From IMG/VR virus record IMGVR_UViG_3300001679_000056, positions 1 through 49,454 of that record: a stretch of 49,454 nt of DNA; one strand, 5' to 3'. Made by a program: the position numbers and the translations under genes. This DNA comes from a virus. Positions 10,077 through 37,055 of the stretch are shown here, in pieces (positions within the stretch are counted from its first letter, which is position 1; every line of letters starts with the position of its first letter). The notes beneath the pieces were generated by a model. That model was given only the letters and a program-made list of their open reading frames with translations, was not told where the DNA came from and did not search any database.

Positions 10077-13000
10077 TGGGCTACCACAATGTAGGAGTTA
10101 GCCCTTTTGCTACAGAGTTGTATCCGGAGATGCCGAGTACAACACCTGCTCACCTAACGCCTGAGTTAGACGCAGCAATGGCTGGTACTCTAGGGCAGCC
10201 TACGGTTAACCAAGCACTACAAGAGACTAACACCCGAATACCTAGTGTGTATGGAAACTCAACGACTGGACAGTTCTTCGTTAATGGATTATTGTTCGAT
10301 GCTGATGACCATACGCAGGCGTTAGAGTCTGAGAAGTATTTAGTGGAACCTGCTACTCAAACCCCACAAGGTGCAGGTTGGCAGCCTCTTGATACTGAAG
10401 GATTCCAGGGTTATATTAATAGTATTAAAGACCCAACACTTGGCACAATAGCAAGTAAGAACTTCGGCATTGGTGTAGACACTCTACAGATGCTAGGCGG
10501 TAACGCCATGCAAGCAATCGGTGATGCTACAGGTATAGACTACCTGTCCGAGACTGGTGCAAGTATCGCAGACCAACAGATTGATGACCTAAGTAAGACT
10601 GAGGTATACCGGACTGAGTTCACAGATATTGAGAACGGTAGTGATGCAGTCAACTGGTTCGTTGGTAACGCTGCACAGATGGCACCTAATGCTATCGAGT
10701 CTTTACTTACATTCTTAGGTGGTTATGTAGTCGGTGGTGGTAACCCACTAACTGGTATACCATCAGGTATAGCTGCGCTATCCGCTAAGACGATAGGTAA
10801 GAAACAACTTGCTAAAGAATTTAAAGAAGCAATGCAAGCTGCTAGGGATGCAAAGAAAGCTGGCCAAGGGTTTAAAACTTTACCTAAGATACACCAGAAA
10901 CGTTTGCGTCAAGCCACTGGTATGACAGCAGTACTCGCTAACAACTATGCGTTTGGTTTAGGTGATTTGTACGGAGAACTTAAGGATACAGACCCAGATG
11001 GTGCATTAGTTAAATCGTTCTTAGGTGCATTCCCATACGCTTTAGCTGAGTCAATGCCGGAGATGCTATTAGCTGGCAGACTAATGGGTGGTATCAGAGG
11101 TAAAGGTGGTAAGTTACGTAGACTAACTACAGGCTTAACAGTAGGTGCTGCCGCAGAAGGTAGTACTGAAGCCGCACAAGAAGCGTTACTTCTACTTAGT
11201 AATCCAGAAGTTGACCTCACATCTGAAGAAGGAATCCATAGACTTATTAACTCGTTCGCTGCTGGTGCAGGTTTCGGTGGCCCTATCGGTGGTATCGCAA
11301 ACTTAACGGGTAGGAAACGTAAGAGAGTTATTACCGATGGAGAAACTAATCTACTAGAGACATCTACAGAACCAGAGGTAGAACCATCTGATTCAACTAG
11401 CGGAACTGAAGAATCTTTCAGTGGAACTGTAGAGAATGTCAGCCAGATAGACGCTGAAATTATAGAGATTCAACAAGAGATTAAACAAGCCTCTAGTGAA
11501 GGTAATATATTTAAAATTGAATCCCTAAACCAACGACTAGAAAACCTTAAGGTCGAGCGTGCTAAATTAGGGAAAGAGGTACGTCTAACTGAGGAACAAC
11601 TCAGAGCGATGGTAATTGCCCAAGTGATGGGTGAACAGGCAGGGCCAGTTACTGTACCTACGCAAGTAGAACAAGCAGAACAAGCTGAACAGGCAGGGCC
11701 AGTTACTGTACCTACTGAAGCGCAGACATTAGAACAAGCAGACTTACAACAAGCACAGGTAGATTCTCTAGCGCAGGCACAGGTAGGAGCGCAAGAACAG
11801 ATAGACGCAAGTGCTGCTGCAGTAGAGGCTGCTGCGGTTGACCCCGATATAGCAGAGAATACAGCTAAGGCCCTAAGGTGGGAAGAGCAACAACTAAAGA
11901 TGCAGCAGATAGAGGAGGATGCAAAACAAGCTGAGTTCGATAAGGAAGAAGCAGCATACAACGCTCAGTTACAAGCTGAAGCCGAGCAAGCAGCATTAGT
12001 ACCAGAGCCAGTACAAGTTGAGAACCCTGTACAAGTTGTAGATACATATAACCGTTTTGTACAGAGAGTTAACGCTCAACTAGGTAGTGAGGGTCTAAAC
12101 TTCCCAGCATTCCATGAGTTATCAGCTGGTGCACAGGTAGAGTTCTCCAAGGTCGCAGGTGAAGTGAACGCAATGCTGGAGACAGGTGGTAATATAAATG
12201 AGATTAAAGCTCTCGTTCGCCAAGCGACATACGATGTTGACGCTGCAGATAAGAAACGAGGACTCTTATTACAGAACAAGAAACTTAAGAAGCCTAAGAA
12301 GCCTGCAAGTGGCGCGAAAGAAATAAACAAATTAAAGAAAACTGTTAAGAAACTTAAGAAAGAACAAGTGGATGCACGTGCTAAGGCACAAACGGATATA
12401 GCTAAGATAGTTGAGAAGGCAGCGAAGAAAGTAAGTTCAACAAAGAAAAAGTCAGAAGCCCGTAAAGTCGTTAACCTCAAAAAAGAGCAAAGGAAGTTAA
12501 ATAAATTACAGACCAAGTTAAAGAATAAACAAAAAGAAATTGACAAGCTTAAAACGGATGCTAAGAAGCTAGGTATTGACCAGCCTCTGTTTGATGCTAA
12601 GACACCACCGAAGAAAGCTGATATTAAAGCAGCTGAGAAACGTGCTAAAGATACTGCCAAAGCTGAGAAGGTAGAGAAGGACAAGGCTATAGCTGATGCG
12701 AAAGAAGCTAAGGCTAAACAGCAGGAACTAGACTTTAGTTCTAAAGAAGAGAAAGAAGCAAAACCTAAAGTAGTAACCCCCGCAGCGAAGCCAATAAGTA
12801 AGCCGAAGGCTGTTGCACGTTGGGTTAAGTTCAGACCTCTATGGGCTAAGACTCTTGGTATTCAGTTCGCTGATTTACCAGCTAGCGTACAGGAACTATT
12901 AAGCACACCTCAGAGGGGTAAGACGGAACTACCTACTCAGAAAGAAATATTAGCTGAATTAGAATCTGATGTAAACTGGTCTAGCATAGCTGCTGCTATG

Positions 13001-16000
13001 GAGGGTTCGACCGAAATTGAAACCTTAGTAGACCGTTTATACGATGGGCATCACAATACTAAAAGCATTATAGTAAAAGCTGTTGATGCATTAGCAGCTG
13101 GTAAGTTCCCTGCGGACACCGTTAACGCTATTAAACTTGAAGTGCTTGGGCGTATGGTAGGTGCAGGGAAATCCAAAACTCTCATAATTAGTAAGAGCAA
13201 CGGAACAACAACGCACGGTAAGTTCGTAGATATACTCGGTTTCCGCGAAGACCTTGTGCAAGATGGCTTTACTATATCTTGGTATAACCCAGAGACTAAG
13301 AAGACAGAGCACGATAGTAAAGTCATACGTAGAGAAAATGCAGCAGACGCAGCGGCGCAATTAGATATTGACCGATTAGAAGCAGCAGAGCAGGCTGAAG
13401 ATGATAGACGTAATACTCTAACTGACGACCAGCGTGACGTAGAGGATGCACTTAGTGTAAGTGGATTACTAGAAAGACTACAGAACAGAACTATTAACAT
13501 CGTGCACTTGCGTATTAAAGGTAACCCCGACATTGCTGCCATACAAGAAGCATATAAGAAACTTGGTACAGTAGGTAAGGCGTTTGTAATAGGCGACGGT
13601 AAGCTATCCGATTACTTCACAAGCGATGGTAAATTAAAACTTGATACATCCCATCCATATGAGACGGGCACAAAATTCTTTAAGCCTTCAACTGCAGTTA
13701 AGGGTGAGTACTATACAGTCGGTGTATCCAAGAATGAAAAAATTGCTGTAACAAAAGCACTGCGAGATAAGCATGCTACTCCATTGCAGCAATTAAAAGC
13801 AGAGCTCAATGGTTTAAACCAACAGATTCAAGAGTTCGATACAACCGGTGTACATAATCTTGACAAGTATGAGGAGCTAACGGGGCAAGCCTCAGATGTT
13901 GCTCTTCGTATTGAGGAATTAACAGACGCAGAGACATCGCGTAAAGGTGAAAAGTCTTCAGCTGCATTAGCCGTAGAGGGTCTCGAGCAGGAAACAACAG
14001 ACAACATACTCATAACGCAGCAAGCAGATAAACGTACTAGAGAAACTGCTACGGCAGATGTAGCTATAGCCCGTAAAGAAAAAGCTAAAGCTGACAGAGC
14101 ATTGCAGACTGCAGAGGCGGTAGCTGAAGAAGCAGAGATAGCCTACACGGATGAAAAAACTGAAGAGCTACAGGAAGCATGGGATGCTGCAGCTGAAGGA
14201 GTTAACAAAGCAGTAGCTGCTGTGACTGAAGCAGAGATTGCACTCAATGCTGCGAAAGGTATACCAACAGACCAAGATACACTAGGTGGTTTCAAACGTG
14301 CAGATAGAAAGGTCGATGCCCCTATGGGTGTTGCAAAGATTAAAGCACTAGTTAAAGCATTCATTAAGAAGGTAAAGGTTACTCCTAAAGTCCATGTGTT
14401 TAAAGATGCAGCTGACTTGAAAGAAGCTAACCCAGAGTTGTTTGCACGTGCTGCTGCGACTAGGTTACCTGGCGAGTTCGAGAACACACAGGCTATGGGT
14501 TTCTCTTTTGATAACGACATCATTATATTCTCTGACTACATCTTAGATGCTAGACAGTTAAAGCATACCATTGCCCATGAGATAATCGGACACCATGGTT
14601 TACGCTCTATCCTTTCTAAGAAGGAACTGAAAAAAGTTCTAATGGATATCTACAACAACGACGCACACGTACGCTTACTAGCTAAACGTACAGCAGACTT
14701 ACAAGATGTTTCATTACTCGAAGCTATTGAAGAAGTCATGGCTGATAAGGCAGCGGCGCTTGATATATCCATTGTTGTTAGAGTATGGAACGCAATGAAG
14801 ACCGCACTTAACAAGTTAGGTATGACCTTCGGAGATGAAGCATCTCGTTATTGGGTTGGACATTTACGCAAGTACGCTAAGACAGGCTCATCAAGTTTTG
14901 TTAATAGCGAACAAATACTTAGGAACATACGTAGCCATGAACGCTCACGCTCACGTGGTAGATTTGCTATCGGTGCCGACCATGATAATATAGTTGGTGC
15001 ATGGCATGAGTCACACGCATACAATAACACTGTAGAGAAGTACTTTGGTAGTGCAGAACCATGGCGCAGATTGATAACAGACCCTACCTTTAAGAATTAT
15101 TCCAAGGAAGTAGGGGGTATTACTAGAGTTATAGGCAAATCACTAGAGGCAGTACAGACATTAAACCATAAAGCTAATAAGAGCCCGGGGCTGTCTTTAA
15201 TCTACCACTTCTTCCAAGACACTGGTAATAAGTCTAAAGATATTATGAACCACTTGGAACAGATGTTACCTACTAAGTTCTTAACAGGTACTACTGAAGT
15301 GCAGAAGCAACGAGCATACCAAATACTAGCGGCAGTATCTATGTACCGTGGTGTAACAGTTGAATCATTAATGACAACGCATAAGAACGCAAAGGTTATT
15401 AAGGTCAACCCAGTAACTGGAAGGTTCGAGATAGACGCAAAAGTTTTAGCTGACTTAGTTGCCGTATCAGAGATGTCACTAGCTGATGTCCGCAAAGGAA
15501 TGAAGGTAGTCGTTGGTGAATTAGAAGAGAAAGGTGATGAAGCATACCAAGGTATTAATACACTACCTATCTTCGGAAGTAATCCAGAGACATCATGGAT
15601 ACACGACGAGTCTATAACCGAGCAATCACCAGAGTGGTTAATGTACCTTGAGCATCGTAAGGCTGTTGCACAGGCTGCAGCTAACGTGTTGTTAGGAGAA
15701 ACCCAAGGTGCACTAGACGAGCAGAAGACTACAATAGATGAGTTCTTAAAGATTAAAGGCACAACTGGTAGTAACTTAGATGATACTGATATTAAGTTCT
15801 TAACTAAAATATTTGAGAAGTACTTAGCTATTAAGAATGAGGGCGACTATAACCTTATCGCTCCGAAGACTGATGAAGAAGCAATAGAACTTTTAAAGAA
15901 AGCTACTGAGCAAGGGAAGAAAGCTGAAGAATTTATATCATCCGCATTACGTGGTATACACAACCCTAAGAAGATTGAAGACTTAGAAGCAGCAGTGAAT

Positions 16001-18697
16001 GGTAAAGGAGAAAACGCTAAGACTTTTGAAGGTATGAATGTTAGCGGTATTTTAGAAAGCGTTAAACGAATTAGAGATAAAGGGATTACAGAGAATCAAA
16101 CTAATGGTATCCAAAATATAATACAGAACTTATGGCTTAATGATTCAATCGTTAGAAGTCAGAAGGCTGGTATGTTACGTACGGTACTGGGTGCTTATGT
16201 TCCATTAGTTCGCGATGGTAAATTCCAAGTTAGTATTAAGGCTTATGAAGTATTAGACAACGGTGTTCTAGGCGCACCTATTAAACTTAATCCTCACACT
16301 AAGAGTATGCTTCTCTATACACAGACTGATAGTGAGACTGCTGCTAGGTCAATGATGACTAACTTTAATGAGAGCAACATAGGTACAGTTAAGTTAGCTA
16401 ATACTGAGGGCACTGTAAAGAATGTTAGACTTCAAGCTGAGTATAGTGAGACTCGTTTAGAGTCGCCACGTTCTGGCCCTGTTGGATACAACGACTTAAT
16501 ACAATCATTAACTGGTGCAGGACTTCAGATGTCACCTAACCAGAGAGAGACACTTGTTAAGAAATCAGCAGCGTTTAAAGGTAAAGCACGTAGGTCTCTA
16601 CCTCGTGCTATGTCACCAGGTTTTGAGCAGGAGAAAGGACTTAAACATGTAGCAGGATATTTAGAAACACAGGCTCATGTTGCAGCGAAGTCTGAGTACC
16701 GCCATAAAATATCTAGAGTTATGGATGATAACGACATGTGGCGTGGTTCATATAGCCTACTAAAAAGTAAAGCTAAGCTTGTTGATGACGCATATGAACA
16801 GTACCAGAAGAATCCAATTGATGCGAATGCTGCTCGTTTAGATATAGCTAAAACTAATTTTGAAAGATACGCTTACATGTATAGGCACTCAGCACCAGTG
16901 AGCGATATCCATCTTGGTAAAGACGGAAAGAAATCAACTACACTTACAATGGAAGTTGGCGGCAAAACATATAACCTCAAGTTAGAAGGTAAGGGTGAAC
17001 GCTATCGTGACGATGCTGCTAGAGTTGTAGCTTGGTACGAACAATCAAGAGATGTTGTAACTAGCACAGAGGATGCGCTATCTGGTAAGTGGGGGTCGAA
17101 GCTTAAGATGGTGACCGTACTAGGTCAGTTAGGTGGTAACTTTGCAACGGCGTTTGTTAACTTAACTTCAATCCCTATGCACACCATTCCATACCTTGCA
17201 TCATACAATGCAGACCGTGGTATTGGTGGTGGCTTTGGATTTGCTAGGTCACATATGGAAGTTGGTAGAGCAATGGCTGACCTTAAGAACCACAAGTTTG
17301 GTACAGAGCAATTCCTAGCAGACATGGTTAAAGGCTGGCCTAAGGGTAAGGAAGATAACTGGGTCAACGAGTACGGATTAAACCTAGATGAAACAGAGTG
17401 GTTACTATTCGAAACTAGATTGGGCATACTTTCCCCCGCGCAGTTCAATGCTTTAGCAGGCTCATCAAGGGGCGGCATGGAGAAGGCTACAACTATTAAA
17501 GCTGTTAAAGGCTGGATGTATATGTTCACCTATACTGAGCAATTGAACAGACGTACTACTGCCTTAGCTTCATACAGACTATACCGTGAGAAGATGCTAG
17601 CAGGTAACCCTCAAGCCACGAAGCAAGAGCTACGAGACCTAGCCTCGAAAGAAGCTAATAAAGTAGTGGATGAAACACAGGGTAACTACGACATGTACAA
17701 CAGACCACAGATGGCACGTGGTAACTTCCTACAGTATCCATTTATGTACAAGCAGTTCGTGCTTACTTCAGTGCAGATGCTTAAGTCGATGAGTGCTAGT
17801 GGTCGACTGTACTATTTAGGATTAATGTTCTTAGTTGCAGGATTTAAAGGTATACCTTTTGCTGATGACTTGATGGATATCATTGATACACTAGCGCAGT
17901 TCTTCGGTATCAAGATGAGTAGTGTTGAACTGGCTGCACATAAAATGCTTGATGAGGTTGCCCCAGGTTGGGCGCCTCAGATTATGAATGGCTTTGCTGA
18001 TAAGTTCACTGGCTCTACATTATCTACACGTCTTGGACATGGTGATTTAATACCATTGACTGGGATGTTTAAAGCAGGTGCTAGTTTTGAGCGTGAGGCT
18101 ACTAACTTATTCGGCCCAGTATATTCAATGGCTACTGGTTTAGGTGGCACTGGTGTTGGAATTACTAAATGGTTTGGAGAAGTACTAGGATTCAAGCCAG
18201 ATACTACAACGCTTAATGACATTGCTAGAGAATCCCCTATTGCTGCATTGCGCGCGATAGCAGATGGATACGCTTACCATGACGATGGTGTAATTACTAA
18301 CGCCACTGGTAAGGTTGTGTCAAAGGATATGAATACTGCTACGGTAGTAGCAAGAATACTAGGGTTCTACCCTGCCGCCGCTACTGCGGAGAATAGGATA
18401 GTTAAAATATCTAAAGGGGTTAGTGACTACACTGCTAGTATCCGTAAGGAATTTCAAGTTGCATATGTCAAGGCTAAGATAAATAAAAACCACTCTGAGA
18501 TTAGACACATCATGAAACAAGTTAGAGATTGGAATAATACTACTAGAGGTACTGAGTTCTATATTAGAAACTTTACTAAGAATGCTAACCGTGCTGCAAA
18601 AGAAGCGATGAGACCAACAGCCGAGCGTTACCTTAAGTCTTCACCTAAGAACATGCGTAAAGATACACAGTGGCTGATGGATTTATACGGACTCTAG
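10076..18697 (+). CDS. Giant internal virion protein with HExxH peptidase-like and PLxRFG-like regions
   Basis: The 2873-residue product is the largest in the window. Residues about 200-420 have hydrophobic Gly/Ala segments. About 430-700 is rich in Gln, Glu and Ala, and about 720-900 is a Lys-rich coiled coil. A zinc-peptidase motif AHEIIGHHG puts HExxH at residues 1501-1505, with a downstream Glu-rich helix (LLEAIEEVMAD) as the possible third ligand. A segment AYVPLVRDGKF near 2040-2050 resembles the PLxRFG domain of large phage proteins. A hydrophobic stretch near 2580 and a basic C-terminus follow. Proteins of this type are carried in the head and ejected with DNA; the peptidase may process virion or host proteins, which is inference. 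No transglycosylase or RNA polymerase motif was seen. Confidence 0.6.
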   Translation: MGYHNVGVSPFATELYPEMPSTTPAHLTPELDAAMAGTLGQPTVNQALQETNTRIPSVYGNSTTGQFFVNGLLFDADDHTQALESEKYLVEPATQTPQGAGWQPLDTEGFQGYINSIKDPTLGTIASKNFGIGVDTLQMLGGNAMQAIGDATGIDYLSETGASIADQQIDDLSKTEVYRTEFTDIENGSDAVNWFVGNAAQMAPNAIESLLTFLGGYVVGGGNPLTGIPSGIAALSAKTIGKKQLAKEFKEAMQAARDAKKAGQGFKTLPKIHQKRLRQATGMTAVLANNYAFGLGDLYGELKDTDPDGALVKSFLGAFPYALAESMPEMLLAGRLMGGIRGKGGKLRRLTTGLTVGAAAEGSTEAAQEALLLLSNPEVDLTSEEGIHRLINSFAAGAGFGGPIGGIANLTGRKRKRVITDGETNLLETSTEPEVEPSDSTSGTEESFSGTVENVSQIDAEIIEIQQEIKQASSEGNIFKIESLNQRLENLKVERAKLGKEVRLTEEQLRAMVIAQVMGEQAGPVTVPTQVEQAEQAEQAGPVTVPTEAQTLEQADLQQAQVDSLAQAQVGAQEQIDASAAAVEAAAVDPDIAENTAKALRWEEQQLKMQQIEEDAKQAEFDKEEAAYNAQLQAEAEQAALVPEPVQVENPVQVVDTYNRFVQRVNAQLGSEGLNFPAFHELSAGAQVEFSKVAGEVNAMLETGGNINEIKALVRQATYDVDAADKKRGLLLQNKKLKKPKKPASGAKEINKLKKTVKKLKKEQVDARAKAQTDIAKIVEKAAKKVSSTKKKSEARKVVNLKKEQRKLNKLQTKLKNKQKEIDKLKTDAKKLGIDQPLFDAKTPPKKADIKAAEKRAKDTAKAEKVEKDKAIADAKEAKAKQQELDFSSKEEKEAKPKVVTPAAKPISKPKAVARWVKFRPLWAKTLGIQFADLPASVQELLSTPQRGKTELPTQKEILAELESDVNWSSIAAAMEGSTEIETLVDRLYDGHHNTKSIIVKAVDALAAGKFPADTVNAIKLEVLGRMVGAGKSKTLIISKSNGTTTHGKFVDILGFREDLVQDGFTISWYNPETKKTEHDSKVIRRENAADAAAQLDIDRLEAAEQAEDDRRNTLTDDQRDVEDALSVSGLLERLQNRTINIVHLRIKGNPDIAAIQEAYKKLGTVGKAFVIGDGKLSDYFTSDGKLKLDTSHPYETGTKFFKPSTAVKGEYYTVGVSKNEKIAVTKALRDKHATPLQQLKAELNGLNQQIQEFDTTGVHNLDKYEELTGQASDVALRIEELTDAETSRKGEKSSAALAVEGLEQETTDNILITQQADKRTRETATADVAIARKEKAKADRALQTAEAVAEEAEIAYTDEKTEELQEAWDAAAEGVNKAVAAVTEAEIALNAAKGIPTDQDTLGGFKRADRKVDAPMGVAKIKALVKAFIKKVKVTPKVHVFKDAADLKEANPELFARAAATRLPGEFENTQAMGFSFDNDIIIFSDYILDARQLKHTIAHEIIGHHGLRSILSKKELKKVLMDIYNNDAHVRLLAKRTADLQDVSLLEAIEEVMADKAAALDISIVVRVWNAMKTALNKLGMTFGDEASRYWVGHLRKYAKTGSSSFVNSEQILRNIRSHERSRSRGRFAIGADHDNIVGAWHESHAYNNTVEKYFGSAEPWRRLITDPTFKNYSKEVGGITRVIGKSLEAVQTLNHKANKSPGLSLIYHFFQDTGNKSKDIMNHLEQMLPTKFLTGTTEVQKQRAYQILAAVSMYRGVTVESLMTTHKNAKVIKVNPVTGRFEIDAKVLADLVAVSEMSLADVRKGMKVVVGELEEKGDEAYQGINTLPIFGSNPETSWIHDESITEQSPEWLMYLEHRKAVAQAAANVLLGETQGALDEQKTTIDEFLKIKGTTGSNLDDTDIKFLTKIFEKYLAIKNEGDYNLIAPKTDEEAIELLKKATEQGKKAEEFISSALRGIHNPKKIEDLEAAVNGKGENAKTFEGMNVSGILESVKRIRDKGITENQTNGIQNIIQNLWLNDSIVRSQKAGMLRTVLGAYVPLVRDGKFQVSIKAYEVLDNGVLGAPIKLNPHTKSMLLYTQTDSETAARSMMTNFNESNIGTVKLANTEGTVKNVRLQAEYSETRLESPRSGPVGYNDLIQSLTGAGLQMSPNQRETLVKKSAAFKGKARRSLPRAMSPGFEQEKGLKHVAGYLETQAHVAAKSEYRHKISRVMDDNDMWRGSYSLLKSKAKLVDDAYEQYQKNPIDANAARLDIAKTNFERYAYMYRHSAPVSDIHLGKDGKKSTTLTMEVGGKTYNLKLEGKGERYRDDAARVVAWYEQSRDVVTSTEDALSGKWGSKLKMVTVLGQLGGNFATAFVNLTSIPMHTIPYLASYNADRGIGGGFGFARSHMEVGRAMADLKNHKFGTEQFLADMVKGWPKGKEDNWVNEYGLNLDETEWLLFETRLGILSPAQFNALAGSSRGGMEKATTIKAVKGWMYMFTYTEQLNRRTTALASYRLYREKMLAGNPQATKQELRDLASKEANKVVDETQGNYDMYNRPQMARGNFLQYPFMYKQFVLTSVQMLKSMSASGRLYYLGLMFLVAGFKGIPFADDLMDIIDTLAQFFGIKMSSVELAAHKMLDEVAPGWAPQIMNGFADKFTGSTLSTRLGHGDLIPLTGMFKAGASFEREATNLFGPVYSMATGLGGTGVGITKWFGEVLGFKPDTTTLNDIARESPIAALRAIADGYAYHDDGVITNATGKVVSKDMNTATVVARILGFYPAAATAENRIVKISKGVSDYTASIRKEFQVAYVKAKINKNHSEIRHIMKQVRDWNNTTRGTEFYIRNFTKNANRAAKEAMRPTAERYLKSSPKNMRKDTQWLMDLYGL

Positions 18698-28103: not shown

Positions 28104-28408
28104 TATCTCTCCATTAAAGGTTTAAGTGTGCTGTATAGTTCTTGTGCTTCTTGGATACTCATAGTGAAGTACCGTTGCGATGACATCTCTAACTGGATTT
28201 TTACACTGACAGTAGCACTGTCTATATGTTTATGTACTGTCTGCTTCGGTACAAAGTCTTGAAGTTTCTGTCTATTTTTTGCAATGCACTTGCAACTATA
28301 TACATAGCCTCTTGTTACTTTGAATAGACGTGCAACTTTCTTAGGAGTTGCTGTTGGATTCTTCTTACAGTAGTCTATTATTTGTTGTTGCTTTGATAGT
28401 TTTTTCAT
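28103..28408 (-). CDS. Helix-turn-helix protein
   Basis: The 101-residue product has an N-terminal HTH at about residues 5-40 (QQQIIDYCKKNP then TPKKVARLFKVTRGYVYS) and a C-terminal half without a clear fold. A GGAGAGTAAC ribosome site supports ATG 28408, although the upstream HslV-like frame runs 44 bases into the gene. It could be a regulator of the replication genes that follow, or a DNA-binding partner of the polymerase. Confidence 0.55.
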   Translation of the reverse strand: MKKLSKQQQIIDYCKKNPTATPKKVARLFKVTRGYVYSCKCIAKNRQKLQDFVPKQTVHKHIDSATVSVKIQLEMSSQRYFTMSIQEAQELYSTLKPLMER

Positions 28409-28847
28409 TGTTACTCTCCGTTGTTATAGTGAAAACTTCCACTCCATGCCCACAGTTAACTGAGAACTTGTTAGTCGCTTCCACCGACTGCTCTGCACTA
28501 GCACCCATTGCCAATGCACCATAGGCAAAGTCTTGCCCTGTTCCAAATGCACAGGCATTGAACCCATGCTCAATAGGTATCGGCGATTGTTCGTATCGCT
28601 TTAACCCATGTTCATCTACCACTACAAACTGGCAGAAATGAGAACTCCTCTGTTCGTTAGGGAAGTCCTCTGTTTTTGCACCTCGCTTATACCATTCTCT
28701 CATCTCGAGAATAAGTTTAAGTGAACCTGCACCTGTAAGAATTGAACCTTCATGATACCATGCTTTAGTAGTTGCCCACTTCCTATGGCTATCTGTTCCT
28801 GCTTTGTCAGTAGCAAGATTAGTCCCGTCCCATACAATTACTGTCAT
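28365..28847 (-). CDS. HslV-like Ntn-hydrolase (proteasome-like peptidase)
   Basis: The 160-residue product starts MTVIVWDG, so removal of Met would expose Thr2, the position of the nucleophile in proteasome beta subunits and HslV. LTGAGS and CAFGTGQDFAYGALAMG are the typical later Ntn-hydrolase strand and turn motifs, followed by CGHGVEVF. Phages carry related stand-alone proteins whose substrates are unknown. The ATG overlaps the stop of a 31-residue membrane gene (ATGA). Confidence 0.65.
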   Translation of the reverse strand: MTVIVWDGTNLATDKAGTDSHRKWATTKAWYHEGSILTGAGSLKLILEMREWYKRGAKTEDFPNEQRSSHFCQFVVVDEHGLKRYEQSPIPIEHGFNACAFGTGQDFAYGALAMGASAEQSVEATNKFSVNCGHGVEVFTITTESNNEKTIKATTNNRLL

Positions 28848-29786: not shown

Positions 29787-30449
29787 TTATTTAGTTAGTT
29801 TATTAAATGTTACTGTTGCTGTTAGGCTATTGACATCAAGGTCGCCTAGTTCTTTAGCCTCACCCTTCTTCCTACTAACAATTTTCATGTGTCGTTCTTG
29901 TGCTTCTTGTGGTACTAAGTCCCATAGTGCAGGGAATACTTTGAGTGCAGGTGATAGCGTAGAGTATGTATTCATTATCTGTTTGATACCATCAACGAAC
30001 TTATCTTTCTTGGCTATAACAATCCACTGTGCATCACGCCACGTCTTAAACTCTGCTTGAATAATAGCGTACTCTGGTACGTTAAGGTTCAGTGTTACGT
30101 CCCTCCAACTCTTATGAAAATCATCGAATGATGAGCCATGTGGCATACGCACTGGTGTATTAAACGTAAGTGGTATATCATCACTCAATCCCCAGTAATA
30201 CCTATCATCACCCTCGCCTACATTTCTGAACCCACCAAAATCTAAGCGTGATGTAGTGTCCATAAATTTATCAGGTAGGGCGTTCATCTTATCTCTAATA
30301 TCTTTAGAGAAGATTGTGTTGTATATATACTCAGCAGTCCATGTTACTGGTAGTTTTTCTTCCAATGCTTTCAGTTCTTTCTTGAACATCTTCTTTGCAT
30401 TATGTTCAATGTCGCTCTTTAATTTCTCACTAAATCTTACTGTTGCCAT
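29787..30449 (-). CDS. Early protein of unknown function, Nmad5-like possibility
   Basis: The 220-residue product starts with a basic amphipathic helix (SEKLKSDIEHNAKKMFKKEL) and has a mixed centre. Its general layout recalls phage proteins called Nmad5 (nucleotide-modification-associated), but I could not confirm diagnostic residues, so this remains a weak idea. It is in the middle of the early operon with an ordinary ribosome site (GGAGAG). Confidence 0.4.
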   Translation of the reverse strand: MATVRFSEKLKSDIEHNAKKMFKKELKALEEKLPVTWTAEYIYNTIFSKDIRDKMNALPDKFMDTTSRLDFGGFRNVGEGDDRYYWGLSDDIPLTFNTPVRMPHGSSFDDFHKSWRDVTLNLNVPEYAIIQAEFKTWRDAQWIVIAKKDKFVDGIKQIMNTYSTLSPALKVFPALWDLVPQEAQERHMKIVSRKKGEAKELGDLDVNSLTATVTFNKLTK

Positions 30450-30461
30450 GCTACTCTCCTA

Positions 30462-31010
30462 TTATTGATTGTCCTTGATGCTTGCTTCCACACACTCATC
30501 ACTCGTTAAATATTCATATTCTCTTTCAAGGTTTCTATACAACTGTTTCATATTCCCTCTCAATATGTCGACAGCGTCCTTAGAAAACCCACCCATTTCT
30601 TCTGCTAGTTTTTCATCATAACTTTTAATGACATGCTGATGTACTTCTGATGGTGCGTCCATCATGTCATAGAACTCATCATGCTTTATATCTATGTCTA
30701 CACTATGCTCATGGTAGTAGTGGTGTATGGCATTGTAGTCAATCATAATACCGATAGAACCTTTATCCATACCTTGTATCATCTTTATCATAGGGTACTC
30801 ATCAAGGTCTACTAACTTGCTAATGTCCTCAACCTCACCCTCGAAACAAGCACCATCACCTTGACTCCAGAAGCCACTGAACATGATGTTATCCACCCTA
30901 ACACCCTGCTCTTTCATGCTCTCTGTAAACTTCTCATGTACATGCTCATACCACTGGTCGTAGACATTTATCTCACGGTTATCATCTAACATATCTGCTG
31001 TAATATTCAT
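30462..31010 (-). CDS. Acidic early protein with an FSGFWSQGDGACF motif
   Basis: The 182-residue acidic product contains NIMFSGFWSQGDGACFEGEV at about residues 41-60, a signature common in a family of uncharacterised phage proteins, and a His-rich patch (NAIHHYYHEHSVDIDIKH). The His and acidic residues could bind metal, but no enzyme is recognised. It overlaps the VWA gene upstream by 4 bases, so it is translated with the AAA+/VWA module and may assist it. Confidence 0.5.
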   Translation of the reverse strand: MNITADMLDDNREINVYDQWYEHVHEKFTESMKEQGVRVDNIMFSGFWSQGDGACFEGEVEDISKLVDLDEYPMIKMIQGMDKGSIGIMIDYNAIHHYYHEHSVDIDIKHDEFYDMMDAPSEVHQHVIKSYDEKLAEEMGGFSKDAVDILRGNMKQLYRNLEREYEYLTSDECVEASIKDNQ

Positions 31011-32128
31011 GACATCTCCACCACTTCACCCCACGGTGCTTTGGTACTGTCTGTCGTTACCCATAGTGTAGGGTATGCAGGTTCATCACCGAAGTCATGA
31101 CACCACAGGTCTGTCAGTACAACACAGGCTACTGGCTCTATGTTATGCTTAGTTATGTACTCGAAGATGGGGCTGAACGCAGTGCCACCTCCACCATGAG
31201 GTTTGATATGCAGTTCATCATCTCTTGTGAACTTATCATAGTGTGATACTTCAGTATCAAAGTACACTACATGGATAGCACTCGGGCTACTGTCCTCTTT
31301 AATAGTTGATACCTCTGATGCAAACTGGTCTATCTCCTCTTGCCCGATAGAGCCAGAACAATCCACTGCCACAACAAGTTCACCCATGGCTTCACCACTT
31401 GCAGTAGGTAGATACATTCCTTGTGCAAGGAAGCGTCTGTTAGGTCTTGCCCATGACCGAGTATCATCTTTACACTTCTCAACAAAGCGTTGTAAGACTT
31501 CACGCCAGTTCACTTTAGGTTGTAGTAACTCACCTGCAAACCGTTCAAGCCCTGCACTCATCTTACCCATCATCTTCGCGGCTTGTACTGCTTGTGCTAC
31601 CTTGACTTTCCACTCGGCTGCTTGTTGTTCTATCTCTGCAGGTGAACCTTCACTATCAAGGCACTCATCTAGTGGGTCGCCTTGACCACCAACAGAACCT
31701 ATACCCTCACCCTTTCCATCTTCGGCAGGTAGTACGTTGTAGATACCGTCAGTAGTTCCGTTGCCTTGTTGCCATATGTCATCATCAAGCAACCCCATTG
31801 ATGGCATTCTGCCGATGTTCTCATCAACCAACAACTTGTTGATAATGTAATCACCTGCTTTATTCCACTTACGCATATCCCTATCTTGTCGTCTGAAGTT
31901 ATGCTCTAACATAGGGTGCATACACTCATGGGCTACAAGGAACTTCAACTCCTCATCACTCAACTTCTCACAGAAGTCGGGGTTAAACATCACCATCTTG
32001 CCATTAGTCGCGGCAGTTGGTACTTCATCACTCAACTTAAACGGCATGTTCAGTGCTATACTCCCAATGAATGGGTGTTCTAACACTAAGGCAGTCTTTG
32101 CTTTACTCAGTCTTTTTTCTACTTCCAC
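31007..32128 (-). CDS. Metallopeptidase-like/VWA protein (DUF2201 type, CobT-like)
   Basis: The 373-residue product has an N-terminal zinc-peptidase-like motif LVAHECMHPMLEH (HExxH at 67-71) and a C-terminal von Willebrand A domain with a complete metal site: DCSGS at 256-260, a Thr in GGGGTAF near 316, and Asp in VVLTDLW near 340. This matches the DUF2201 architecture. VWA proteins of this kind pair with MoxR/CobS-like AAA+ ATPases to load metals or remodel targets; the matching ATPase is at 33987. The start is GTG, with a GGAGG site 7 bases upstream. Confidence 0.75.
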   Translation of the reverse strand: MEVEKRLSKAKTALVLEHPFIGSIALNMPFKLSDEVPTAATNGKMVMFNPDFCEKLSDEELKFLVAHECMHPMLEHNFRRQDRDMRKWNKAGDYIINKLLVDENIGRMPSMGLLDDDIWQQGNGTTDGIYNVLPAEDGKGEGIGSVGGQGDPLDECLDSEGSPAEIEQQAAEWKVKVAQAVQAAKMMGKMSAGLERFAGELLQPKVNWREVLQRFVEKCKDDTRSWARPNRRFLAQGMYLPTASGEAMGELVVAVDCSGSIGQEEIDQFASEVSTIKEDSSPSAIHVVYFDTEVSHYDKFTRDDELHIKPHGGGGTAFSPIFEYITKHNIEPVACVVLTDLWCHDFGDEPAYPTLWVTTDSTKAPWGEVVEMS

Positions 32129-32321
32129 AGTCGTCCTCCATATTTAAAAGTTTAATCTTATGCTCAATGTTTATTAACTGAGCCATTAGTAATGACATAG
32201 GTAGATGCTTAAGTATCATGTCAACAAGTTCACCTGTTGGTAACTCATGCATCTGGTCATGCCACACACTAAGTGCAGTATTGAACTCAGTCTTTAGGCT
32301 TTCTATTTCTACGTTTGTCAT
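32103..32321 (-). CDS. Small helical protein of unknown function
   Basis: From ATG 32321 the product has 72 residues (MTNVEIESLKTEFN at the start); a longer GTG-started frame to 32360 is possible but has no ribosome site. The protein is helical with a Leu/Met-rich middle (LVDMILKHLPMSLLMAQLI) and a charged tail. It overlaps the VWA gene by 26 bases and a membrane-protein gene by 35 bases, which suggests re-initiation. Confidence 0.4.
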   Translation of the reverse strand: MTNVEIESLKTEFNTALSVWHDQMHELPTGELVDMILKHLPMSLLMAQLINIEHKIKLLNMEDDCGSRKKTE

Positions 32322-32409
32322 TTGTATACACAATGTAATAAAAAGTCCAGCCGAATACACCCGACACTACCATTTCAATCCACGTTACATTTTCCCAAAG
32401 TTCAGCCAT
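32287..32409 (-). CDS. 40-residue single-pass membrane protein
   Basis: A GGAGGG site 9 bases before the ATG supports this gene strongly. The peptide has an acidic head (MAELWENV), one hydrophobic aromatic segment (WIEMVVSGVFGWTFYYIVY) and a basic tail (DKRRNRKPKD), which predicts the C-terminus in the cytoplasm. It overlaps genes on both sides. No family is recognised. Confidence 0.5.
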   Translation of the reverse strand: MAELWENVTWIEMVVSGVFGWTFYYIVYTNDKRRNRKPKD

Positions 32410-32605
32410 CTTGTTTTCCCTCCACTATAAGTTCGTTACACATCTGTATAGCACTGTCAGATAGTGCAAAGATATGATAATCATTCTGTGCATCTTTACC
32501 TCTTGTCGCTCTACGTATCTGTTCAAGTAGTGACTTAATGCCACTTACTTTGCATCTACATTCGTCCATGGTGTGGTATCCACCAGTTTCTTTATCAATC
32601 GCCAT
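32402..32605 (-). CDS. Small early protein of unknown function
   Basis: The start is placed at ATG 32605, which has GGAG 8 bases upstream; a longer frame to 32644 lacks a site. The 67-residue product has a CRC pair and charged helices with QIRRATRGKDAQND. It overlaps the next gene's ATG and the preceding gene's end. No function can be assigned. Confidence 0.45.
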   Translation of the reverse strand: MAIDKETGGYHTMDECRCKVSGIKSLLEQIRRATRGKDAQNDYHIFALSDSAIQMCNELIVEGKQDG

Positions 32606-32792
32606 TGTATTCTCCTTCTGTAAATGGCAGGGGCATACCGTCATTGGTTACTATCTCCCTACCTAAGTGATAATCTCCACCCATTCTAGCGACTGCTTCC
32701 ATCGCTGATAACTCGTCATAGAAGTTGTGGAGTGTTAAACCCGTTGTTGAATCAATTACAAAGTACCTAACCGTTGGTGGTGTAGTACTCAT
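32595..32792 (-). CDS. Small early protein of unknown function
   Basis: The 65-residue product begins STTPPTVRYFVIDSTTG and has a single mixed domain with ELSAMEAVARMGG, which reads as a strand-helix unit. It overlaps the genes on both sides by a few bases, as expected for a coupled phage operon. No family is recognised. Confidence 0.45.
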   Translation of the reverse strand: MSTTPPTVRYFVIDSTTGLTLHNFYDELSAMEAVARMGGDYHLGREIVTNDGMPLPFTEGEYNGD

Positions 32793-32995
32793 GTTAGTTC
32801 CTCGTCAACAGTCTTCATAATCATATACACAGCATCGTCTAAGTCCTCTCTATACTCTGTATTCAATAACGCTACTACCTCAAGCCAACGTCGCTGACTA
32901 TCAGCATTATCTTTACGTCTTGTAGCACCAAGGTAGTCCTCGTATGACCAAGGTCGTGGTGTATATGCTCTCATTACTGGTGGGTTTGCCATCAT
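32789..32995 (-). CDS. Small early protein of unknown function
   Basis: The 68-residue product starts at one of two adjacent ATGs after GAGGAAAAC. It has a Tyr/Pro/Trp-rich N-terminus and an acidic C-terminal helix (DLDDAVYMIMKTVDEEL). It is the first gene after a 136-base gap with RNA hairpins. No function can be assigned. Confidence 0.45.
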   Translation of the reverse strand: MMANPPVMRAYTPRPWSYEDYLGATRRKDNADSQRRWLEVVALLNTEYREDLDDAVYMIMKTVDEELT

Positions 32996-33021
32996 GTTTT
33001 CCTCAATAGTTATAATTAGGT

Positions 33022-33046
33022 GGTTACTTCACACATGGCAGTAACC
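33022..33046 (-). promoter_or_regulatory. Hairpin in the leader of the 32995 gene
   Basis: GGTTACT (33022-33028) pairs with AGTAACC (33040-33046). An alternative pairing GGCA with TGCC (33037-33052) overlaps it, so the two folds exclude each other. It lies in the leader, about 27 bases ahead of the 32995 start. The possible role is regulation or RNA processing. Confidence 0.35.
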
Positions 33047-33067
33047 GTTGCCACTCTAATAACCTCA

Positions 33068-33100
33068 TCAGCCTATATGAAATTTCATGGGGTAGGCTGA
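33068..33100 (-). promoter_or_regulatory. Long two-part inverted repeat in the 32996-33131 gap
   Basis: TCAGCCTA (33068-33075) and TAGGCTGA (33093-33100) are 8-base perfect arms; the 17 bases between them include the 12-base palindrome ATGAAATTTCAT (33077-33088). It is not followed by a T-run on either strand, so it is not an ordinary terminator. Confidence 0.45.
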
Positions 33101-33131
33101 CAAGCAAGATGGTGTGTTCATCTTATAAGGA

Positions 33132-33977
33132 TTACCCCATGAAGGAATCCATTTTATTCATTATATCCTTTGCAACTTGAGCAGTGTCTTGTCTTAACAC
33201 TGGATTGTTTCTTAATGCATCAGGGTGTAACAACAATGAATCCTCAACTTGTTGACGTAAGCCTTCAAGGTGTGAGTCCTCAGCAAAGTTAAGCCTAGGC
33301 AGTAAAGCACACAACTCTCTCGTATTCTCTACCATAGTATCCCTAAAGATTGCCTTCGGGTCTGCTAACTTATCACTCATATGCTTCACTCTATCATACA
33401 ACCTCTGCCAGATGTCTGCCATTGCTGCAGCACTAGCCTCGGTTACTCTACGCTCAACATCTTGCTGTATACTAGCCAACTCATCGTCATCAATAGCAAC
33501 ACGGAAATCGTCTGAAGGCACTGGAAATACTGCAACTTCCATATTAAACTTCTCGTGTATACTACTGTCAGCAGGGTAGTCGTTCTCGTTATACAGCCCG
33601 TTTGGTAATAGTCTCTTGGCGTCCTCCTTCAGTCTATCATAGTTATCAAGAAAGTCTTTAACTAGCAACTGCCACTCTGCTTTCTCATTCCTAAACTCTG
33701 TCATAAACTCCAAGTAGTTGGCAGATGGTAACATCTGAGTACCCTCAATACCCCACGGTAACGTGTTGGTGTAGTACTTAGTCCTTATATATGATGCCTT
33801 CTTATGGACTCTATCAAGGTAGTCATTCATAGGCAGTAGGCTCTTGTTAAACCTCCCTGCACCCATTAATGCACCATGTTGTGTCAGTATCTCTTTAGTA
33901 ACCTTACGGTCATACTTCCTTGCTGACCATTGACTGATACTAAGTTGCACTAGCAGTGCCTTGTCTGTAAGTTTCAT
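33132..33977 (-). CDS. DUF3150-like protein of the AAA+/VWA module
   Basis: The 281-residue product starts with LSISQWSARKYDRKVTKEI, the hallmark of the DUF3150 family found beside CobS-like ATPases and VWA proteins in phages. The rest is helical and rich in Glu, Asp and Arg, with no catalytic motif. It lies directly between the AAA+ ATPase and the VWA side of the cluster, and is probably a third partner. Family assignment is from memory of the motif and should be checked. Confidence 0.6.
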   Translation of the reverse strand: MKLTDKALLVQLSISQWSARKYDRKVTKEILTQHGALMGAGRFNKSLLPMNDYLDRVHKKASYIRTKYYTNTLPWGIEGTQMLPSANYLEFMTEFRNEKAEWQLLVKDFLDNYDRLKEDAKRLLPNGLYNENDYPADSSIHEKFNMEVAVFPVPSDDFRVAIDDDELASIQQDVERRVTEASAAAMADIWQRLYDRVKHMSDKLADPKAIFRDTMVENTRELCALLPRLNFAEDSHLEGLRQQVEDSLLLHPDALRNNPVLRQDTAQVAKDIMNKMDSFMG

Positions 33978-33986
33978 ACATTCCCC

Positions 33987-34979
33987 TTAAAATAAGATGT
34001 CTTGGTGCTTAACTGCCCAATCTGTAAACGCCTTGGTTGATGCTAAGTCTGGGTTCTTCCTCGCCGCATAACTGATGCTTAACACACTGAACTCTGGTGG
34101 CATACGTTCAGCATAAGTACAAACCCTACTGAAGTTAGACTCTGTTGCCCTCTCTGCAATTGCACCACTCAAAGCATACAGTGTTGATGGGTCTGTTGGT
34201 ACGTTAGCAGTTGTCGGATTAAGTATGATGTTGTCTGGATTAGGTAGGTTACGGTAGATACGAACAAACCCTACGAACTCTGCTGCAGCACCCTCACCGA
34301 CAGCACCTTTAAAGCATTCATACTCAGCCTCTGGTGGTACAACACCCAGTACATCACTGACACCCTCCACCCAACTTCTTGGTGTAGCATTCTGTTCCCT
34401 CTGTGGGTCAAAGTCATGCAGTAAGTTAGGTCTAAACCTAATGAACGATACCACCTCTGTGGCTACCCCTCGCTCTATTGCCCATGAACTCCAGTCATCA
34501 AGATGTGTATCAAGGTCAATGACTGTTTCCCTATTCCTAAGGTGAGATAGGACACGGTTAGCACCTGCTCTATCCGACTGCCTGTTACCAGTACTGATGA
34601 CTTGCCAACCACTAGGAAGTTTATGTCCATGTAACGACCGTGCTTGACAGATGTTAGCCAACACCTTCTGTAAATCTGCACCTGCTTGGTTTCTATCATC
34701 GAACAATAGTATCCCTTTATCGGGTGCTTTACCCTCTTGTGGAAACCACTCGGGTAATCGGTAAGTTAGACTATCTGTACCGTCCTTATCGGGGTACAGT
34801 ATCCCGAAGTCCTCAACCAACATAGTTGGCATATGTAACTCTACACATGGTATGTTCAGTTCTTTAGCCACTTGGTGTACTATGGTCGTCTTACCACCAC
34901 CTGGGCTACCCTCTATACATACCGTCCTTTGTTGTTTGTTTAACGACTTCAACGTGTCTTTCAGCAATGTTGCTCTCAT
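33987..34979 (-). CDS. MoxR/CobS-like AAA+ ATPase
   Basis: The 330-residue product has Walker A GSPGGGKT at 24-31, a Walker B segment ILLFDDRNQA at about 90-99, sensor 1 STGNRQ (N132) and a sensor-2-like PRSW (R201). The usual catalytic Glu after the Walker B Asp is Asp here (DD rather than DE), which may reduce hydrolysis. The family forms rings that act with VWA-domain partners to remodel proteins or insert metals. The VWA/peptidase gene and DUF3150-like gene follow. The start overlaps a small upstream gene by 4 bases. Confidence 0.7.
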   Translation of the reverse strand: MRATLLKDTLKSLNKQQRTVCIEGSPGGGKTTIVHQVAKELNIPCVELHMPTMLVEDFGILYPDKDGTDSLTYRLPEWFPQEGKAPDKGILLFDDRNQAGADLQKVLANICQARSLHGHKLPSGWQVISTGNRQSDRAGANRVLSHLRNRETVIDLDTHLDDWSSWAIERGVATEVVSFIRFRPNLLHDFDPQREQNATPRSWVEGVSDVLGVVPPEAEYECFKGAVGEGAAAEFVGFVRIYRNLPNPDNIILNPTTANVPTDPSTLYALSGAIAERATESNFSRVCTYAERMPPEFSVLSISYAARKNPDLASTKAFTDWAVKHQDILF

Positions 34980-37010: not shown

Positions 37011-37044
37011 AAATAAACAAAAGAAAAACCCTGGTTTCCCAGGG
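37011..37044 (-). terminator. Strong intrinsic terminator of the small minus-strand operon
   Basis: On the minus strand CCCTGG (37044-37039) pairs with CCAGGG (37034-37029) around a GAAA loop, followed by a long T-rich run (TTTTTCTTTTGTTTATTTTTT). It ends the 37602-37056 operon before the origin-like region. Confidence 0.75.
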
Positions 37045-37055
37045 CTCTTAGTTAT

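Follow-up and report, generated by a model that had tools for sequence, protein, structure and literature searches.

An AAA+ ATPase, a DUF3150-like protein and a HExxH/VWA protein as a conserved gene trio of phages and conjugative plasmids

The cooperation of an AAA+ ring with a VWA/MIDAS partner is known from NorQ–NorD, CobS–CobT and Midasin, whose clients are nitric oxide reductase, a cobalt-insertion substrate and the pre-60S ribosome, respectively, and which work without a known DUF3150. For NorQD, cryo-EM has led to a finger-in-pore model in which the MIDAS-bound client is twisted (PMC13036017). A two-gene form is already published for phages, namely gp24/gp25 of Escherichia phage N4 and the MoxR and metallopeptidase-vWA pair of jumbo phages, and a role in virion assembly has been proposed. 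In N4 the two are middle genes (PMC4193335).

The window, i.e. the whole analysed stretch of 49,454 nt, is the IMG/VR record IMGVR_UViG_3300001679_000056, positions 1 to 49,454. The three ORFs which a first-pass annotation had described as adjacent genes for an ATPase, a DUF3150-like and an HExxH/VWA (DUF2201) protein were all found where it had placed them:

33987..34979, minus strand: AAA+ ATPase, MoxR/CobS/Midasin-like, 330 aa (phrog_1297 match 3.3e-74, Pfam, motif alignment)
33132..33977, minus strand: DUF3150-like third component, 281 aa, orphan fold (profile and predicted fold)
32789..32995, minus strand: small variable gene between the partners, 68 aa (matches only in the closest relatives)
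32595..32792, minus strand: small variable gene, 65 aa (matches only in the closest relatives)
32402..32644, minus strand: small variable gene of at most 80 aa with an uncertain start (matches only in the closest relatives)
32287..32409, minus strand: putative membrane peptide, 40 aa, doubtful gene (match only in the nearest relative, L007/L055)
32103..32360, minus strand: small gene of at most 85 aa that overlaps the DUF2201 gene start (matches only in the closest relatives)
31007..32128, minus strand: DUF2201 protein, 373 aa, zincin-like N-terminal domain and C-terminal VWA (Pfam, motif alignment, structure model)
30462..31010, minus strand: phrog_5162 protein, 182 aa, overlapping the DUF2201 stop (PHROG match)

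Strict adjacency holds for the ATPase and DUF3150-like genes, which are 9 nt apart, but not for the DUF3150-like and DUF2201 genes, between which lies a gap of ca. 1 kb. This gap is a variable insertion spot, ranging from 17 to 1099 nt across loci, and the tiny genes and the membrane peptide, although present there as previously noticed, lie outside the conserved module; their restriction to the closest relatives and the variable length of the spot rule them out as its parts. The trio is embedded in a series of replication genes on the strand opposite to the terminase, portal and head genes, and the expression “early operon” would be a reading of this position. Two further proteins kept in the phage clade, p220 (weak Nmad5) and p278, are missing from every plasmid or genome locus tested and therefore reflect phage synteny. 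An HslV-like peptidase gene is conserved within the same gene series; as a partner of the ring it was rejected, its tree matching the module least (0.35–0.55). The phrog_5162 protein, which turns up again close to the module in 12 bacterial loci, is associated with it and not obligatory.

The motifs of the ATPase, Walker A (GSPGGGKTT), Walker B (ILLFDD), sensor-1 N132 and the arginine finger candidate R150, support its assignment as a putative AAA+ protein of the MoxR/CobS/Midasin type; R201 is a candidate for sensor 2, and G27, K30, N132, R150 and R201 are invariant among the aligned relatives. The protein passes the Pfam cut-off for AAA (PF00004, E 9.8e-6) and remains below those for AAA_5 (21.4 vs 22.0 bits) and AAA_3 (14.5 vs 27); its closest solved relative in a profile search is Midasin (E 1.4e-34). 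The DD following Walker B, flagged earlier as atypical, is real and a trait of the lineage, in which the second acid of Walker B is a D (DD in 146 of 149), so that no defect is implied. PADLOC models gave only weak P-loop matches to the ATPase.

Both domains of the DUF2201 protein scored above the Pfam cut-offs, DUF2201_N (PF13203) with 7.8e-48 and 163.9 bits and the VWA-like DUF2201 (PF09967) with 1.3e-28 and 100 bits. The HExxH motif occupies residues 67–71 and is present in all 167 phage-clade DUF2201 proteins; the invariant H76 and the near-invariant D93 are candidate third zinc ligands. In the C-terminal VWA domain the MIDAS signature (DxSxS, T, D) is formed by D256, S258, S260, T316 and D340. 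HExxH, MIDAS and Walker motifs are kept across about 150 relatives, and the predicted structure of the DUF2201 protein resembles VWA/MIDAS folds and a selecase-like metallopeptidase. Among 14 aligned proteins from genomes, three have lost HExxH, and proteolysis is therefore not always needed. The Pfam scan revealed no HNH domain, which casts doubt on the widely copied annotation as “HNH endonuclease” (PHROG 1314).

The middle component matches Pfam DUF3150 (PF11348) marginally (E 0.019, 14.7 vs a gathering cut-off of 24.9 bits), is tied to it by profile-profile comparison (prob 93.5, E 2.4e-7) and fold-matches, as a model, a phage protein annotated as DUF3150 (E 4.7e-20, TM 0.86). Its surrounding gene order equals that around PF11348 members. 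Given homology by profile and fold with a score below the cut-off, we term it DUF3150-like and not a strict PF11348 member; a search of viral contigs with the pCAR1 protein retrieved no true PF11348 DUF3150. The model (pLDDT 87.6) consists of long helices and a small N-terminal sheet and found no match in the PDB at E <= 0.001. Altogether, Pfam, profile, fold and motif evidence uphold the three family assignments and speak in favour of a remodelling module of the MoxR-VWA kind. As to the anticipated profiles, both DUF2201 domains and, by profile-profile comparison, DUF3150 were recovered, but DUF3150 and AAA_5 fell short of the Pfam cut-offs.

The order of the three genes is nearly constant. 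In viral loci the ATPase gene lies upstream of the DUF3150-like gene in 110 of 111 cases and DUF2201 downstream of it in 117 of 117; a DUF3150-like gene also precedes DUF2201 in all 54 loci collected without reference to DUF3150. In bacterial loci the arrangement is kept between the DUF3150-like and AAA genes in 41/48, the other seven being reordered to DUF3150-AAA-DUF2201, and between the DUF3150-like and DUF2201 genes in 40/42. The phage module genes evolve more slowly than those flanking them, and the AAA and DUF3150 trees agree best (0.88). Within one phage clade, synteny alone is to be expected even of three unrelated neighbours in a single operon. Burkholderiales plasmids, Rhizobiales prophages and bacterial genomes, however, carry the same trio, and in the bacterial loci the three proteins recur while other proteins of the window hardly do. 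This recurrence without flanking phage genes contradicts chance neighbourhood, which we regard as most improbable. Single bacterial genomes may hold several copies of the module.

The Burkholderiales plasmid trio (ATP-binding protein, hypothetical and VWA-like protein; e.g. loci L004–L006) shares families, order and DD with the phage trio at 30–40% identity and differs in sitting on conjugative or mobilizable plasmids, with T4SS genes adjoining in the case of L005 and L006; of the phage genes flanking the trio that were tested, none was found there. A parallel trio, in which the DUF3150 is a true PF11348 member, exists on conjugative plasmids, among them pCAR1 and IncC. The three classes of this trio (AAA/CobS-like, DUF3150, VWA; ORF101–103 in pCAR1) are those of the phage trio, with profile matches of prob 97.6 for the ATPase and 93.5 for DUF3150. 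It differs by a longer, CobT/NorD-like VWA protein and a longer DUF3150 with a C-terminal extension; in IncC the AAA gene is split off upstream. The plasmid VWA proteins also carry an invariant HExxH (H57, E58, H61). By profile, the two HExxH-VWA families are weakly linked (prob 26). PF11348 DUF3150 genes occur on over a thousand plasmid records, mostly conjugative and many enterobacterial; the matches of an E. coli search were plasmids except for one chromosomal place. Deletions of SXT s067, s068 and s070, which only possibly correspond to trio genes, reduce transfer at most 10-fold (PMC2791158).

CobT and NorD are matched by the profile of the plasmid VWA proteins, and the AAA and VWA classes are homologous to CobS/CobT/NorD, which might point to a chelatase-like chaperone inserting metal into a metalloenzyme of the element or its host, as NorQD and CobST do. 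We consider this improbable, as no metallo-cofactor client gene travels with the trio in the phages and plasmids examined and most of the proteins keep the HExxH peptidase signature.

A chaperone of virion assembly or maturation, in which the ring and the peptidase-VWA protein fold and trim virion proteins, corresponds to the proposal for group 2.2 jumbo phages, which cites the tail MoxR-vWA of the archaeal virus ATV (PMC7824862). Moreover, the ATPase of cyanophage S-TIM54 adjoins a virion structural gene and Hsp20, and N4-like roseophages have extra virion genes near their gp24/gp25 homologues (PMC4193335). Such a role appears distinctly unlikely because the present trio is located opposite to the head genes and conjugative plasmids have a parallel trio although they build no virions; sharing with plasmids weakens a purely phage-structural role, and the job is probably a common one, not virion building alone. 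This sharing would be expected for entry-phase counter-measures, i.e. a machine which on entry unfolds or cuts a host protein of defence or DNA processing. In the polyvalent proteins of phages and plasmids, zincin peptidases form a pervasive shared theme (PMC5512222), and the presence of several copies in one bacterial genome suggests turnover of the conflict type. Typical arms-race genes, on the other hand, do not evolve more slowly than their neighbours as the module genes do. The lack of PADLOC matches for DUF3150 and DUF2201 proteins is a weak point against this anti-defence role, as PADLOC covers defence and not anti-defence, and we rate such a role as unlikely, if still a serious candidate.

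As the three genes are conserved, run in one direction, have intact motifs and stay together in phages, plasmids and prophages, we tentatively propose, at somewhat less than an even chance, a three-component protein-remodelling machine which acts early on a client near the element DNA and not in virion assembly. In analogy to solved relatives, the ATPase would form a hexameric ring onto which the DUF2201 protein docks with its VWA domain; the MIDAS metal would grip an acidic residue of the client, and ATP turnover would twist or unfold it. The client, or a segment pulled out of it, might then be cut by the HExxH domain which the DUF2201 polypeptide also carries. DUF3150 may serve as an adaptor or scaffold that this variant requires, perhaps for choosing the client. 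The client is, with less certainty, presumed to reside on or near incoming or replicating element DNA, because the pCAR1/IncC-type trio usually lies beside RecT/Bet and a lambda-type exonuclease and the phage trio among replication genes. It could belong to the element's own replication or recombination complex or be a host factor blocking it, and the machine would, again less certainly, operate early. Together with the sharing with plasmids, which lack virions, this context speaks for remodelling or cleavage of a protein with an effect on how invading DNA establishes itself, replicates or recombines. Against the proposal stand the virion-gene neighbours in S-TIM54 and roseophages, the mild effect of the SXT deletions, the DUF3150 undetected near the genes of N4, EcP1, phage G and others, the HExxH losses in genome proteins and the weak profile link between the HExxH-VWA families. 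That the trio is a hitherto undescribed ATP-driven, protease-coupled device with an orphan-fold DUF3150 component which phages and conjugative plasmids use at DNA entry or replication for stripping or cutting protein off DNA-bound complexes is possible, though on balance doubtful.

Literature searches yielded no paper naming DUF3150, no demonstrated function for the plasmid DUF3150 genes or the two-gene phage pair and nothing direct on N4 gp24/gp25, which the available part of the CRISPRi-ART paper does not cover. The ternary MoxR-vWA conflict systems of the VMAP type (PMC7159879) likewise combine MoxR, vWA and a third protein, which is VMAP, iSTAND or others; DUF3150 is not named there, and the Pfam scan found no effector domain on the DUF2201 VWA protein, for which reasons we do not assign the trio to them. 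The jumbo-phage proteins (Iyer et al. 2021) share the two-protein architecture by description and are presented, in the accessible part of the paper, as a pair with no mention of DUF3150 or a plasmid link (PMC7824862). With AAA and DUF2201 homologues in one gene cluster, the phage locus contains a pair of the gp24/gp25 type, which is found in about 730 phage records. In N4 (Schitoviridae) the homologous ATPase and HExxH-VWA protein are encoded upstream of replication genes; after Walker B its ATPase has DE where the present one has DD, and a profile search of the fetched N4-like regions detected no DUF3150-like gene. Once the phage and plasmid trios are linked, the phage-only guess of virion assembly gives way to a function which invading DNA elements would share and which can be tested, with phage N4 and pCAR1 as model systems that laboratories already have.

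The virus record (49,454 bases, classed as linear) carries terminase, portal, head and tail genes on the plus strand and DNA polymerase, primase-helicase, helicase and exonuclease genes on the minus strand. The three genes of interest lie upstream within the minus-strand series that holds the replication genes, with open reading frames present where the first-pass annotation had placed them:

33987-34979, minus strand: AAA+ ATPase (PF00004 AAA and phrog_1297)
33132-33977, minus strand: DUF3150-like gene (Pfam DUF3150 match, below cut-off only)
31007-32128, minus strand: DUF2201 protein (both Pfam DUF2201 domains, far above cut-off)

These matches bear out the proposed AAA and DUF2201 assignments. 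The ATPase and DUF3150-like genes are 9 nt apart, and about 1 kb with small genes inside separates the latter from the DUF2201 gene. The DUF2201 stop codon is overlapped by the gene of a phrog_5162 protein (30462-31010, minus strand) with a FSGFWSQGDGACF motif, which recurs in the vicinity of the trio at 12 bacterial loci (including L135, L136, L163, L171 and L180) and is a possible, optional fourth partner. The same gene series encodes a 160-aa HslV-family-like protein (28365-28847, minus strand; phrog_1040, 1.8e-25; 89 ORF matches among fetched loci), whose N-terminus, M-[ST]-V-[IV]-V-W-D-G, suggests an N-terminal-nucleophile peptidase. The product of 29787-30449 (minus strand), p220, matches the nucleotide-modification-associated domain Nmad5 weakly (E 7e-4, below cut-off) and shares with p278 a conservation confined to the phage clade. 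Elsewhere, a strong stem-loop at 37024-37049, terminator-scoring on both strands, lies between the divergent gene blocks, and the 2873-aa product of 10076-18697 (plus strand) matches, through its C-terminal 500 residues, the end of phrog_11358 (6.1e-37), a phage family of 3431 positions and unknown function.

The earlier DUF3150 assignment survived in qualified form: the single sequence misses the Pfam threshold, but profile-profile and fold matches connect it with the family, hence the name DUF3150-like. An alignment of 55 relatives matched that of seven plasmid DUF3150 proteins with a probability of 93.5 (E 2.4e-7), and the pCAR1 member of the latter matches PF11348 at 8.3e-92. The predicted structure (pLDDT 87.6, pTM 0.79) has its best viral fold match in a phage protein annotated DUF3150 (E 4.7e-20, TM 0.86); a PDB fold search gave no match at E ≤0.001, and the modelled fold is thus one without a solved counterpart. 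A weak structural match to S5YZA3 of Mycobacterium phage Dylan (E 8e-4, prob 1.0, TM only 0.37) may indicate a wider DUF3150-like family.

Where the flank of a viral locus was long enough, AAA was upstream of DUF3150 in 110 of 111 cases and DUF2201 downstream in 117 of 117, and DUF3150 lies upstream in all 54 loci fetched via DUF2201 alone; these counts are not all independent, because overlapping fetches of some contigs are included. The non-phage loci are stronger evidence that the association exceeds chance. In bacterial genome loci the trio recurs (41/48 and 40/42 by locus count) and other window proteins hardly at all. The seven remaining loci of the 48, from Rhizobiales, have the order DUF3150, AAA, DUF2201, and the only one checked (L139) adjoins a phage terminase. 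Burkholderiales plasmids carry this trio as adjoining genes or, in L004, within one gene series, and T4SS genes lie beside it in L005 and L006; in Dechloromonas (L133) its surroundings hold RecT, a primase-like protein and RadC. All three module gene trees recover the phage clade as monophyletic, their distances correlate at 0.72-0.87, and median distances within this clade are 0.54-0.75 for module genes versus 1.6-2.4 for flanking genes. Some alphaproteobacterial MAGs contain up to seven DUF3150-like loci (L141, L153, L166, L167, L174, L188 and L190 in one MAG; L183 and L192 share one chromosome), some of them near HATPase, PAPS-reductase or integrase genes, a possible mobile or conflict-type expansion. 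NZ_CP110465.1, a 75-kb Acinetobacter baumannii 'plasmid', and Acinetobacter phage vB_IME_Ab2712 (74.6 kb) have an identical DUF2201 match (query 2-367, 32.3%); the former may be a phage genome misfiled among the plasmids.

A parallel trio occurs on conjugative plasmids. In pCAR1, AAA, DUF3150 and VWA are encoded consecutively; the original description of the plasmid calls ORF101 MoxR-like and ORF103 VWA, and reports conservation of genes within ORF100-103 in R478, Rts1, SXT and R391 (PMC2642839). The pCAR1 DUF3150 protein matches 1118 plasmid records, 969 of them typed conjugative. RecT, lambda-type exonuclease, AAA, DUF3150 and VWA follow in series in four of the six plasmid regions read, and in the remaining two, an IncC and a Vibrio plasmid, an AAA gene sits upstream of bet-exo instead. 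The phage and plasmid ATPases match at profile level (prob 97.6), and direct profile similarity between the VWA families is weak. Since the plasmid VWA proteins have an invariant HExxH (H57, E58, H61) and a MIDAS, the combination of a peptidase signature and a VWA domain is common to both trios.

All 167 phage-clade DUF2201 proteins have HExxH, as do those of the two-gene phages, which encode the AAA-DUF2201 pair, but 3 of the 14 genome copies in the alignment have lost it; the five MIDAS residues are all retained wherever aligned. The 'HNH endonuclease' label of PHROG 1314 and of many phage records, N4 gp25 among them, looks wrong for this metallopeptidase-VWA protein, because no HNH domain was found in the window protein. 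The ATPase retains Walker A, sensor-1 N132, R150 and R201. Its DD after Walker B, where most have DE, was noted correctly: the second acid is D in the ATPases of the phage clade (146/149) and of Burkholderiales plasmids (3/3), versus E in those of the two-gene phages (7/7) and of most genome loci (52/57). DD is therefore a lineage feature, and a slower ATPase is a plausible consequence.

The three proteins very probably form one AAA-VWA remodelling machine. Midasin is the best solved relative of the ATPase profile (E 1.4e-34), the plasmid VWA profile matched CobT and NorD, and the DUF2201 model (pLDDT 84.3, pTM 0.58) matches VWA/MIDAS domains and also, within a short segment, selecase, a small metallopeptidase. 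The Midasin, CobT and NorD matches uphold the first-pass idea of a remodelling module. Cryo-EM of NorQ-NorD revealed a finger of the VWA protein inserted into the ring pore, and the MIDAS was suggested to hold the client, with a linker twisted through ATP turnover (PMC13036017). In analogy, the ring would move the DUF2201 protein, which would grip the client and, with its attached zincin domain, may also cleave it.

Because replication and recombination are common to the contexts seen, our best guess, held at somewhat less than even confidence, is a client protein, own or host-derived, on replicating or recombining invading DNA. We count against it that the ATPase of S-TIM54 adjoins virion genes, that roseophage virion genes lie close to gp24/gp25 homologues (PMC4193335), and that deletion of SXT s067, s068 or s070, not necessarily trio genes, caused a mild transfer defect (PMC2791158). 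The S-TIM54 arrangement would favour virion assembly, the role that Iyer et al. (PMC7824862) proposed for the two-gene form that jumbo phages carry. As a general function this is doubtful, mainly because a counterpart trio resides on conjugative plasmids, which make no virions.

Neither the DUF3150-containing trio nor the phage-plasmid link was found in the literature searched (open-licence papers only), which does not prove their absence; the AAA-VWA chaperone kind and the two-gene phage pair are already known. DUF3150 is probably an adaptor or scaffold required in the three-gene variant; it was not found in N4 and the other phages with the two-gene form.
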